Below, piece by piece: positions 33,488 to 38,994 of a stretch of DNA of 64,000 bases. Position numbers and translations under genes: made by a program. A model generated the notes under the pieces. That model did no database searches and was not told the DNA's origin. It saw only the letters and a list, made by a program, of their open reading frames with translations. The DNA lies in the NCBI GenBank assembly GCA_901472505.1, contig LR590468.1:620001-684000 (forward strand), given 5' to 3'. Each line of letters starts with the position of its first letter. The stretch's first letter is position 1. The DNA is from Proteus vulgaris (lineage in GTDB: Bacteria; Pseudomonadota; Gammaproteobacteria; Enterobacterales; Enterobacteriaceae).

Positions 33488-36400
33488 ATGAACTCAAAAA
33501 ACTTCAAGCTCTCTCCTTCGGGTAGGCTTGCTGCATCTTTAGCGATTATTTTCGTCTCACTAAATGCATATGCTGGCGGTATTGTTCCTGATTCGGGCAA
33601 TCAAGGACCGAATGTTTCATCTGTCAATGGTGGCACTCAAGTCATTAATATCGTTACACCAAATAGTGAAGGTATTTCTCACAACCAATATCAAGATTTT
33701 AATGTAGGCAAACCTGGCGCTGTTTTTAATAACGCCTTAGAAGCTGGACAATCACAGCTAGCAGGGCAATTAAATGCCAATAGTAATTTAAATGGGCAAG
33801 CCGCCTCTTTAATTTTAAATGAAGTTGTTAGTCGTAACCCATCATTTTTACTAGGTCAACAAGAAGTCTTTGGTATTGCTGCGGAATATGTCCTTTCTAA
33901 CCCAAATGGCATCACCTGCGATGGTTGTGGATTTATTAATACCAGTCGCTCTTCTTTAGTCGTAGGTAATCCACTGTTTGAAAACGGTCAGTTGAAAGGA
34001 TATAGCACGCTTAATAACACGAATTTACTTTCTATTGGTAAAAACGGTTTATATGCACCAGGTCTTTTAGATCTAATTGCACCACGTATTGATAGCAAAG
34101 GAAAAATAACTGCTGCTGAAATTTCAGCGTTAACAGGACAAAACACCTTCTCTCAACGTTTTGATATTCTTTCATCACAAAAACCAACTTCTGCATTAGA
34201 TAGCTATTTCTTCGGAAGTATGCAATCTGGCCGTATTCGTATTATTAATACCGCAGAAGGAAGTGGTGTTAAATTAACGGGTAAATTTGTTGCTGATAAT
34301 GAACTAAGCGTAAAAGCTGATAATATTCAAACAGATAGCCAAGTTCGTTTCGATAATTTCGATAAAGATGGCAGTGAAAACTACCAAAATTACCGTGGTG
34401 GTATCGCAGTTAATAATAGTGGTTCAAGCCAAACTCTAACAAAAACAGAGTTAAAAGGTAAAAACATCACATTAGTGGCTGATAATAAAAATCAAATCAA
34501 AGCCTCTGATTTAATGGGTGATGATATTTTATTACAAGGCGCTCATTTAACTGTTGATGGAAAACAGCTACAACAAAAAGAGACTGATACCGACAATCGC
34601 TGGTTCTATTCTTGGCAGTATGATGTCACTAAAGAAAAAGAACTCGTACAACAAGTTGGTAGCCATATTGATGCCAAAAATAGTGCAACATTAACGGCAA
34701 CTCAAGGTGATGTAACACTTGAAGGGGCCAAAGTTAATGCGGGTAACACACTGGCAATTAATGCTAATCAAGATATTAATATCAACGGATTAGTTGAGAA
34801 AGAAAATCGCAGTGAAAATGGCTACAAGCGTAACCATACTTCTCGCTTAGAAACCGGTAGCTGGAGCAATAGCCATCAAACAGAAACCTTAAAAGGCAGT
34901 GAGTTGACTGCAGGTAAAACACTAGGTTTAAATGCTGAAGGCTCTGTTACTGCCCAAGGTGCAAAATTACATTCTAATGAGAATGTTATTGTTAATGCTA
35001 AAGAGAACATCAATCTTAATGTTCAAAATACCAATAATGATAAAACCGTAACTGACAATCATGTCGTTTGGGGTGGTATCGGCGGTGGTAATAATAAGAA
35101 CAATAACAATAAACAAGAAGTCAGCCATTCAACACAATTAACTGCAGATGGGCAACTGTTACTAGCCGCAGAGAATAGTGTCAAAATCACCGGAAGCCAA
35201 GTCAAAGGCAACCAAGGGGCATTTGTTAAAACGACCCAAGGTGATGTTGTTATTGATAATGCAATTAGCGAAACCATCACAAAAACTGATGAACGTACAG
35301 GTACAGCTTTTAACATTACTAAGAATTCTCACAAAAACGAGACTAATCAACAACTTTCAACCGGCAGTGAATTAGTGTCTGATGCACAGTTAACCGTTGT
35401 CAGTGGGAAAGATGTCAATGTCATCGGTAGCTTAATTAAAAGTGCTGAAGAATTAGGTATTGAATCTTTAGGTGATATCAACGTTAAATCAGCACAGCAA
35501 ACCACAAAAATCAATGATGAAAAAACATCCTTAGAAATCACTGGTCATGCGAAAGAAGTTGAAGATAAGCAATATAGTGCTGGTTTTCATATCACTCATA
35601 CATCCAATAAGAACAATAGTACAGAGACTGAACAAGTCGGCTCTACTCTTAGTGGTGGCAGTGTTAAAATTCAAGCAGATAAAGATGTCACTTTTGCTGG
35701 TTCTGATTTAAAAACAACGGCAGGTAATGCCACGGTGTCTGGTGATAATGTTGCTTTTGTTTCAACAGAAAACAAAAAAGAGACTGACAGTACAGATAGA
35801 ACCATTTCGGGTGGCTTTAGCTATACCGGTGGTGTCGATAAAATCGGTAGTAAAGCTGATTTCCAATATGACAAACAGCATACAACAACCGAAATCACCA
35901 AAAATAAAGGTAGCGAAACTCAAGTTGCAGGTGATTTAACAATTACAGCAAACAAAGATGTAACGCACCAAGGCGCATCACACAAAGTTGATGGTGCTTA
36001 TAAAGAATCGGGTGAAAATATCAATCACCTTGCCGTCAATGACAGTGCAATCTCTAAAACAGATACCTTAAATGTGGGTGTTGATGTAGGTGTTAATCTT
36101 GATTATAGCGGTGTCACTAAACCAATTAAGAAAGCCGTTGAAGATGGTGTTGATGTTACTAATCCAGACAGCAACAAAGGTATTGAGAAAAAAGTCAATT
36201 TTAAAGATGCCATTAGTAATCTTGCTAACTTAAGTAGCTTAGAAGCACCTAATGTAGGCGTTAACGTTGGTGTAAAAGGTGGAGGAAGCCAGAAGTCACA
36301 AAGCGATAGCCAAGCAGTTTCAACCTCTATTACTGCCGGAAAAATCAACACTGACAGCAATAACACCTTACATGACCAAGGAACTCATTATCAATCAACG

Positions 36401-38222
36401 CAAGGTGATGTTGCGCTAACAGCAAATACACATACCAGTAAAGCTACGCAAAACAAACACCAAGTATCTTTCCATGAAACAACTGGTGGTGGTCAAGTTG
36501 GTGTCAGCACCAAAACAGGCAATGACATTACTGTAGCCATTAAAGGTGAAGGTAAAACCACTGACACTAGCTTAACCATAGCAAAAGCCGAAGGTAGCCA
36601 AATTAACTCAGCGGGTCATATCAATATTAATGTGCGTGAAGATGCACATTATGAAGGTGCTAAGTTTGACGCTCAAAATGGTAAAACTGTCATTAACGCT
36701 GGGGGAGATTTAACGCTTGCACAAGCAACAGATACTCATACTGAAAGCCAGAATAGCGTAAATGGTAGTGCAAACCTAAAAGTAGGTACAACACCAGACA
36801 GTAAAGATTATGGTGGTGGCTTTAAAGCAGGTGGTGCAAATCATCAAAAAGATCAAACAACAGCACAAGCGGGATCTGTGAATGGTTCCCAAGGTATCGA
36901 GCTAAACTCAGGTCATAATCTGACGTTACAAGGTACTCATATTACCAGTGAAAACGATGTTGCTTTAACCGCAACTAACAAGGTTGATTTCCAAGCAACT
37001 GAATCTCAACGCACTGAAACAGGTAAAAATTTATCAGGTGGATTACAAGCGGGCTTTGGCCAGAAAGCAGGCGAAGAATCGTCTTCTATCAGTGGATTAG
37101 GTGGTGCTGAATTTGCTATCGGTAAACAAGATGAGAAAACAGTATCTCGTGAAGGTGGTACAATTACCAACCAAGGCAATTTAATAGTTAATGGTAGCTC
37201 TATTAATCTTCAAGGCACTAAAGTTAATAGTAAAGAGACACAATTAACCTCCCAATCTGGTGATACTACGCTGACATCAGCACAATCTACAGATTACAAA
37301 AATAATTGGAGTGTCGATATCGCCTTAAATGGCGAACAAACCAATACCACACCAAAAGAAGTGACTGAAGAAAATCCAACCTCTTCTATCCATAATATTG
37401 GTGGTAAAGTACTGGTAAATGTTGAAGATCAACAAAAATCCACACATCAAAACACGGTTATAGAAACAGGAACATTAACCGTAAACAGTGATAAAAAACC
37501 TCACTCTTTCGGGTGCTAATGTTTCTGCAGATAACGTAACAGGCCATGTTGGTGGTGACTTTACAGTGACTAGCCAAAAAGACAGCGATCGCCATGTCAG
37601 TGTTGATGTCAATGTAGGTTATAACCACAACAATGATCCTGAATCTAGCCAAGTTGATAAAACAGCAAAAGCGGGTGGATCATTATTAGAAAATACGATC
37701 AAAGAGACTATTGATTCAGGAATTAAATCTGCAACAGATGTTATTTCTGATAAATATAATTCACTCTCTTCAAGTATCGCAGATAAAACCGGTATCAGTG
37801 GCGAAACAAAAGCTAAAATTGACAACGGTGTTAACTATGTCGGTAATGGTATTAAAAATATTGTCACTGGCGCAGAAGGTCATACCGCCAATGCCGATAT
37901 CAAGGTCTCTCATATTGACAATGATGCAGTTACCGAAACTACAACCTTAACAAGCAAAAATGACATTTCATTAAATGTCAGTGGCACAACTAAACTTACA
38001 GGTGCTGAAGTAAAAAGCGAACAAGGCCAGATTGATTTAGGCAGTAGCAACGTTCAATTAAATAATATTGAAGGTCATCATTACGAAGCGGGTGCAGATC
38101 TTGATCTGAAATCATCAGCTGTTGATTTAGTGAAACAACTTTCAAGCGGTGATTTATCATTAAAATCACCGATTAAAGTCAATGAAACTGTAAACACAAA
38201 ATCCTCTATTTCTGAAAAATAA
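33488..38222 (+). CDS. hpmA: Secreted haemolysin HpmA (one-base insertion)
   Basis: TpsA exoprotein that lyses host cells. A 29-residue signal peptide ends at AYA; the TPS secretion domain contains NPNGI and the cysteine pair C144 and C147 (GITCDGCGFINTS). The rest is a long beta-helix of filamentous haemagglutinin type. The uninterrupted frame stops at 37519 after 1343 residues. The A run at 37493-37498 has six bases and needs five; with five, the frame continues as SDKNLTLSGANVS to 38222, giving exactly 1577 residues, the published HpmA length. GGAG lies eight bases before the ATG. Confidence 0.93.
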
Positions 38223-38264: not shown

Positions 38265-38294
38265 ACCCCGCTTATTATAATAAGCGGGGTTTTT
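38265..38294 (+). terminator. Terminator after hpmA
   Basis: A 13-bp perfect dyad, ACCCCGCTTATTA with TAATAAGCGGGGT, followed by TTTT. It lies about 40 bases past the hpmA stop. Its core arms CCCGCTTA and TAAGCGGG recur in the terminator at 38922-38947. Confidence 0.9.
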
Positions 38295-38432
38295 ATCTCT
38301 CTATTTTAGTCTCTTCTTTTCCCATAAATTCACAATTTTTACATATTCTAAAAACACTCAAATAAACATAATTATTTGAATTAAAAGTAAAATAGCCATT
38401 AAAACTGTAAAAAATAAATTAATGCATAACCC

Positions 38433-38463
38433 TTGACCTTCCCCTAATGGTAAAGTTTAAGCT
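38433..38463 (+). promoter_or_regulatory. CueR-type copper promoter of the remnant locus
   Basis: TTGACC (-35), a 19-base spacer and TAAGCT (-10), with the operator ACCTT-N11-AAAGT across the spacer. The long spacer and the ACCTTCCCC half-site match copper promoters controlled by CueR, which twists the DNA to activate transcription when Cu(I) is bound; the right half-site deviates by one base (AAAGT for AAGGT). It drives the 55-codon remnant that follows. Confidence 0.8.
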
Positions 38464-38496
38464 TAATTTCATACCCTATTTAAGAGGAGAATTCTA

Positions 38497-38664
38497 ATGG
38501 ATACGAAGACAACGTTGTCCTCTGCCAACCGACTGAGTTTACCTGTAGAAGGAATGACATGTGCTTCATGTGGTACAATTAATAAAACAGGAGCTTTTAG
38601 CTTTAACGTCACTAAAGTCGGTTCAAATACCGTTTTGGCACAAATTATTCGCTTAGTGGGATAA
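38497..38664 (+). pseudogene. copA: copA remnant: short frame with HMA metal motif fused to part of the A-domain
   Basis: A 55-codon frame preceded by AGGAG. Its first part, [11 protein letters not shown], is the start of a copper-binding HMA domain of P1B ATPases. It then jumps directly to [19 protein letters not shown], followed by [10 protein letters not shown], a stretch that in CopA lies in the actuator domain several hundred residues later. The natural reading is an in-frame internal deletion of copA with the rest of the gene lost. No membrane helices or ATPase domain remain, so it cannot pump copper. The CueR-type promoter and the ribosome site are intact, so a CxxC-containing peptide may still be made. 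Confidence 0.8.
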
Positions 38665-38899
38665 CAGAGAACGCGCCAGTGCAGATGTGAAATCTATTGC
38701 GCTCTCCCATATTGAAGCGCTCAATTGTAAGATTGCAGAATTACAACAAATGACAAAAACATTAGAACATTTAGTCAAAGATTGCCAAGGTGATAACAAT
38801 CCTGATTGCCCCATTATTGCAGGATTAATCGAGCCCGGATCAGGATCTGAAAGTCAAAAAACAAAAACTCATCTCTCACATTTGCACTCTTCAATTTAG
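38657..38899 (+). pseudogene. cueR: cueR remnant: C-terminal third of a copper-responsive MerR-family regulator
   Basis: The frame opens at W and continues [11 protein letters not shown], then a dimerisation helix (LNCKIAELQQMTKTLEHLVKDC by its ends) and the metal loop CQGDNNPDCPI with both copper-ligand cysteines. This is the C-terminal part of CueR or HmrR. The helix-turn-helix and first half are missing; upstream lies the copA remnant in another frame. Neither a start codon with a ribosome site nor a DNA-binding domain is present, so it should not act as a regulator. Confidence 0.82.
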
Positions 38900-38921
38900 T
38901 TTTTTCCTATCAACAATAAAA

Positions 38922-38949
38922 AATCCCGCTTAATAATAAGCGGGATTTT
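38922..38949. terminator. Bidirectional terminator between the copper scar and secA
   Basis: AATCCCGCTTA pairs with TAAGCGGGATT (11 bp, loop ATAA), with A and T tracts on both sides. It ends the copper remnant and secA transcripts. Confidence 0.9.
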
Positions 38950-38994
38950 CTTATTCAACGAAAAGCTAAATAACCATTATTATCAACAGATAAA

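Follow-up and report, generated by a model that had tools for sequence, protein, structure and literature searches.

The 64,000-nucleotide stretch analyzed here (the window) covers positions 620001-684000 of a closed 3.92 Mb genome of the genus Proteus (G000). The site lies in the gap that separates an hpmA-like gene, which ends at 38222, from secA (minus strand, starting with 38995). A first-pass annotation described it as a collapsed copper locus with a 19-base-spacer promoter, an AGGAG ribosome site, a 55-codon frame and the C-terminal tail of CueR, and a sequence check located all of these parts as follows:

38433-38463, plus strand: CueR/HmrR-type promoter with a -35 element TTGACC (38433-38438), a 19-base spacer holding the operator and a -10 element TAAGCT (38458-38463), from sequence and alignment.
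38485-38489, plus strand: Shine-Dalgarno-like AGGAG, 7 bases 5' of the ATG; a similar G-rich stretch is present in relatives.
38497-38664 (stop included), plus strand: 55-codon frame with its ATG at 38497, from sequence.
38497-38571, plus strand: start of what used to be the ActP/CopA ATPase (codons 1-25), with CASC from its first metal-binding motif as the last residues and 96% identity to residues 1-25 of the ATPase of P. vulgaris PR00166 (G018).
38570-38575, plus strand: junction of deletion 1, where 1065 bp (355 codons) are missing in frame; the ends of the break match over 3 bases, judged by eye.
38572-38661, plus strand: 30 A-domain codons matching residues 381-410 of the G018 ATPase, 93% identity.
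38655-38664, plus strand: junction of deletion 2, where about 1.58 kb are missing, which held the 3' portion of the ATPase gene and codons 1-69 of the regulator (residue count by alignment).
38657-38899, plus strand: remaining C-terminal frame of what was the CueR/HmrR gene, with about 80 residues; the start and the DNA-binding domain are gone, and the earliest GTG is at 38687.
38918-38951, no strand assigned (listed on the minus strand): hairpin terminator that marks where the former operon ended, on the side towards secA, from a terminator scan.

The TAA stop of the 55-codon frame is supplied by the junction of deletion 2, and the regulator-tail frame carries the metal loop CQGDNNPDC. The neighboring hpmA-like gene (33488-38222) reads as two frames (1343 + 244 codons), against one frame of 1577-1580 codons in the eight relatives from which the complete gene was retrieved.

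The site was searched in 40 genomes, including its own, from genome collections that hold one genome per species. Matches were obtained in 13 of them: the own genome, 11 of 19 relatives of the same genus and one genome of another family. The match in the latter (G024; L018) is a 46-base stretch, 83% identical, over the remnant promoter region and is possibly another CueR-type promoter. In 10 of the 19 relatives, the same hpmA-secA gap contains a whole operon, in which an ATPase gene of 829-847 codons (called from the first start) is followed by a CueR-like gene of 135-150 codons, and the collapse of a copper locus is thus borne out. The three remnant pieces are collinear with the intact operon in these 10 relatives (72-90% DNA identity over the pieces), so chance resemblance can be ruled out; the common place and order argue for common descent. 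Only 25 + 30 of about 830 codons of a P1B-type ATPase are left, and the 55-residue frame matches a P-type ATPase profile weakly over residues 24-54 (20.4 bits, below the cut-off of 28.1). The regulator starts from about residue 70 and covers CueR profile positions 73-126 of 127, without the DNA-binding domain; its profile support is moderate, with 25.8 bits against 25.4 for Pfam MerR-DNA-bind and 69.8 bits for NCBIfam CueR, below the full-length cut-off of 147.4. Given the intact counterparts in relatives and the disabling changes at the remnant, the site qualifies as a pseudogene locus.

The loss of at least two segments, which had been deduced from the letters of this site, agrees with the two breaks mapped against the 10 intact relatives. 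Deletion 1 has the same length of 1065 bp, or 355 codons in frame, against all 10 of them. Deletion 2 amounts to about 1577-1582 bp in the same comparison, with a 3-5-base match at its ends (by eye), and took the last part of the ATPase gene together with the start and the DNA-binding domain of the regulator. Both occurred at short sequence matches and removed about 2.65 kb in total. The earlier identification of the operon stands as far as a copper ATPase/CueR-like pair is concerned, but the pair is a second one of the actP-hmrR type and not the main chromosomal copA/cueR of the genus.

Besides the remnant, other damaged or missing states of the operon were observed in the genus. In G001 (L037, about 1743-2435), the ATPase has been lost at the same site while the regulator gene is whole, which represents a separate loss. 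Both genes are absent from 8 of the 19 relatives, where a bare gap of 118-211 bases is found. On a tree built from 2.3 kb of secA, damage to the operon or its absence is seen at three or more positions. The first is G000, which stands on its own branch, the node parting it from the nearest groups being weak (ultrafast bootstrap 49). The second is G001, within the group of G018. The third comprises seven operon-less genomes inside a clade with intact copies, the grouping of these seven being weakly supported (16-31 at its deepest nodes). The absence of the operon in P. myxofaciens may be a loss or an original absence. On the best reading, Proteus has lost this actP-hmrR-type operon three times or more, the remnant being one of these cases. 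The hpmA-side (38265-38290) and operon-side (38918-38951) terminators have in common a 17-nt repeat, 94% alike, and recombination between these repeats could have cleanly removed the operon in the operon-less relatives.

The 55-residue sequence occurs in 142 database contigs as one distinct sequence (protein cluster), and a 50-residue allele, in which the frame is broken after residue 33, occurs in 23; these counts are read as contigs bearing the listed sequence. The shorter allele is reproduced by a 7-nt deletion at any of seven equivalent positions in the AGCTTTTAGCTTTA stretch, and residues 1-33, including GMTCASC with its CxxC, are kept in both alleles. The other six of the eight protein-database matches seem to be fragments of complete ATPases or of ATPase starts. 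The cluster of the 70-aa regulator tail contains 10 distinct sequences against one in the 55-aa cluster, and its representative has CQSD in the metal loop where the remnant has CQGD. This one-versus-ten contrast could mean constraint on the 55-aa frame, although it is confounded by clonality, gene calling and partial genes. Plasmid records searched for the site and viral contigs searched for the exact deletion junction gave no match. In the literature retrieved on Proteus copA/cueR/actP, on ActP/HmrR and on CueR/copA deletion, no listed title or abstract opening names the remnant.

Taken together, the site is very probably what remains, without function, of a spare operon for copper efflux that encoded an actP/copA-like ATPase and an hmrR/cueR-like regulator. 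Two deletions have left the promoter, the ribosome site, 55 codons, the regulator tail and the terminator. They presumably date from an ancestor of the scar-carrying strains and may have been tolerated because the genus also has its main copA/cueR system, the remnant now probably drifting. Its promoter is probably still responsive to copper through the intact CueR encoded elsewhere, and the outcome would be a short, useless transcript of some 0.5 kb, perhaps with an unstable peptide of 55 residues. The locus thereby provides a mapped case of the stepwise loss of a redundant metal-efflux operon in one genus, in which promoter and terminator outlast the genes.

The promoter combines a 19-base spacer with a CueR-type dyad. 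Compared with ACCTTCCC-(5)-TGGAAGGT, its operator agrees at 8 of 8 positions in the left half and 5 of 8 in the right half (hand count), and the left half-site is the same as that of the main copA promoter. A consensus promoter scan does not list it, since the scan allows spacers of 16-18 only. Twelve copies of the 24-mer starting at 38432 were found in the genus, 11 of them exact and one with two mismatches; in 8 of the 20 Proteus genomes nothing matches it within three mismatches. This core is identical in 10 of the 11 copies in relatives. Promoter and start are in place, as had been proposed. Also as proposed, CueR is encoded elsewhere: an intact gene lies at 814965-815342 of the genome (TIGR02044, 178 bits versus a cut-off of 147.4). 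Genome-wide, five CueR-box-like sites were found (at most three mismatches), preceding the main copA, the remnant and the genes for a DUF305 protein, a DUF411 protein and a multicopper oxidase, while a reversed control pattern gave none. Because the promoter core is unchanged and an intact CueR is present elsewhere, copper-induced transcription from the remnant promoter is plausible on sequence grounds.

In a first alternative, the scar frame could have been kept as a CueR-induced gene for a short Cu(I)-binding peptide that would buffer or deliver copper by analogy with CopA(Z), the short chaperone produced from copA in E. coli. The frame with its start, the ribosome site and the promoter are all in place, deletion 1 is in frame, GMTCASC is present in both alleles and a single 55-aa sequence recurs in the 142 contigs. 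Residues 9-31 also match NF041115, an NCBIfam family of small metal-binding proteins, but weakly (23.5 bits against a cut-off of 95). However, only the start of the HMA fold remains: the CxxC is present, whereas no match to the HMA domain (PF00403) was obtained in the peptide at E up to 0.1, so the peptide falls short of an HMA fold with CxxC as in CopZ/CopA(Z)-type chaperones. The single-sequence AlphaFold model is poor (mean pLDDT 49.4, pTM 0.28) and too weak for a fold search, and the frame is shifted in 23 contigs.

Substitutions do not set the frame apart from the tail. Against the 10 relatives, 52 of the 55 scar codons give a pN/pS of 0.03-0.15, a value set aside as evidence of function because the divergence may largely predate the breakage of the gene. 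Lineage-specific changes in these ATPase-derived codons comprise two non-synonymous and six synonymous ones, which would favor a kept peptide, but the pattern is not distinguishable from that of the regulator tail with three of each (Fisher p 0.58). Here the scar was compared over 52 codons with 10 relatives, G001 being left out since its ATPase is gone, and the tail over 53 of its about 80 codons with 11 relatives; junction codons and the variable C-terminus of the tail were excluded. In view of the partial metal-binding domain, the frameshifted allele, the substitution pattern and the poor model, the proposal that a functional CxxC peptide is still made is not supported. It is improbable that the scar frame serves as such a copper-inducible peptide, and correspondingly improbable that the double deletion made a fixed gene for a 33-55-residue CxxC peptide under the CueR encoded elsewhere. 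Production of a useful peptide, if it took place, would be a case of a regulated micropeptide born by deletion.

Two further alternatives concern the parts that outlasted the genes, and both are given very little probability. In the first, the promoter would be kept as a decoy that titrates CueR. The unchanged 24-base core and the left half-site shared with the main copA promoter are consistent with this, but the genome has four other CueR-box-like sites, so little titration of the regulator would be expected. The core is moreover dispensable, since 8 of the 20 Proteus genomes do without the 24-mer, and a recent loss of the operon would leave it unchanged anyway. In the second, the remaining unit would act as a copper-induced small RNA and not through a peptide, which is hardly to be expected either, even though a short transcript is plausible because promoter and terminator both remain.

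The main copA/cueR of the genome, located at about 814.9-818.4 kb, bears on how redundant the spare operon was. Intact copA and cueR had been suggested as targets of a genome search; cueR is intact, whereas the main copA (815477-818418) reads as two frames (349 + 633 codons), against one 980-codon frame in G018 and G019. The 349-aa half is found in a single contig of the protein database, and its break is therefore likely an assembly error or a strain-private change. Since the scar is carried by 142 contigs, the break of main copA is a matter of the strain and not of the scar. Should the break be genuine, it would be more difficult to regard the disappearance of the spare operon as harmless for this strain. 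Main copA is also cut short in G013 (taken as P. penneri; L157), with a 209-codon frame, and the ATPase query found no full-length main copA in this genome; in G006 (taken as Proteus sp. FME41; L156) it is split into 499 + 475 codons. Errors in the assembly studied here are possible, given the broken hpmA-like and main copA frames and the single-contig half of CopA, but collapse or sequencing error at the remnant site has a negligible probability and was rejected, as the same 55-aa sequence stands in 142 contigs and each break is a deletion on the kilobase scale between short matches.

Among known systems, CopA(Z)/CopZ copper chaperones are short products starting with a GMTCxxC stretch; the remnant peptide has this start in common with them but is without the rest of the fold. 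The main enterobacterial copA/cueR divergon comprises the same kind of pump, regulator and promoter as the pair of this site; however, it lies in another place in a divergent arrangement, and its proteins are 42-45% (ATPase) and 37-39% (regulator) identical to those of the intact pair found at the site in the genus. The closer likeness is with the actP-hmrR copper operon of rhizobia, named in PMC1526738. The rhizobial operon, like the Proteus site, has the ATPase gene followed by a MerR-type regulator gene on the same strand and a promoter with a 19-base spacer. Unlike it, the remnant has both genes broken and an operator whose right half departs from the published signal. Among the 15 records listed of 5000, the ATPase of the relatives is 68-71% identical to rhizobial plasmid proteins and 91% identical to two Proteus mirabilis records. 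On a plasmid of Ensifer canadensis, a CueR-like gene comes next after the ATPase (about 70% identity) in the same orientation, and in Sinorhizobium sojae a frame of about 370 codons sits between the two. Within Proteus, a table in PMC5701452 gives two such genes for P. mirabilis ATCC 29906, copA (984 aa) and actP1 (829 aa); judging from length, strain and contig, actP1 appears to be the intact counterpart at the site of the gene that has been deleted in the remnant genome.
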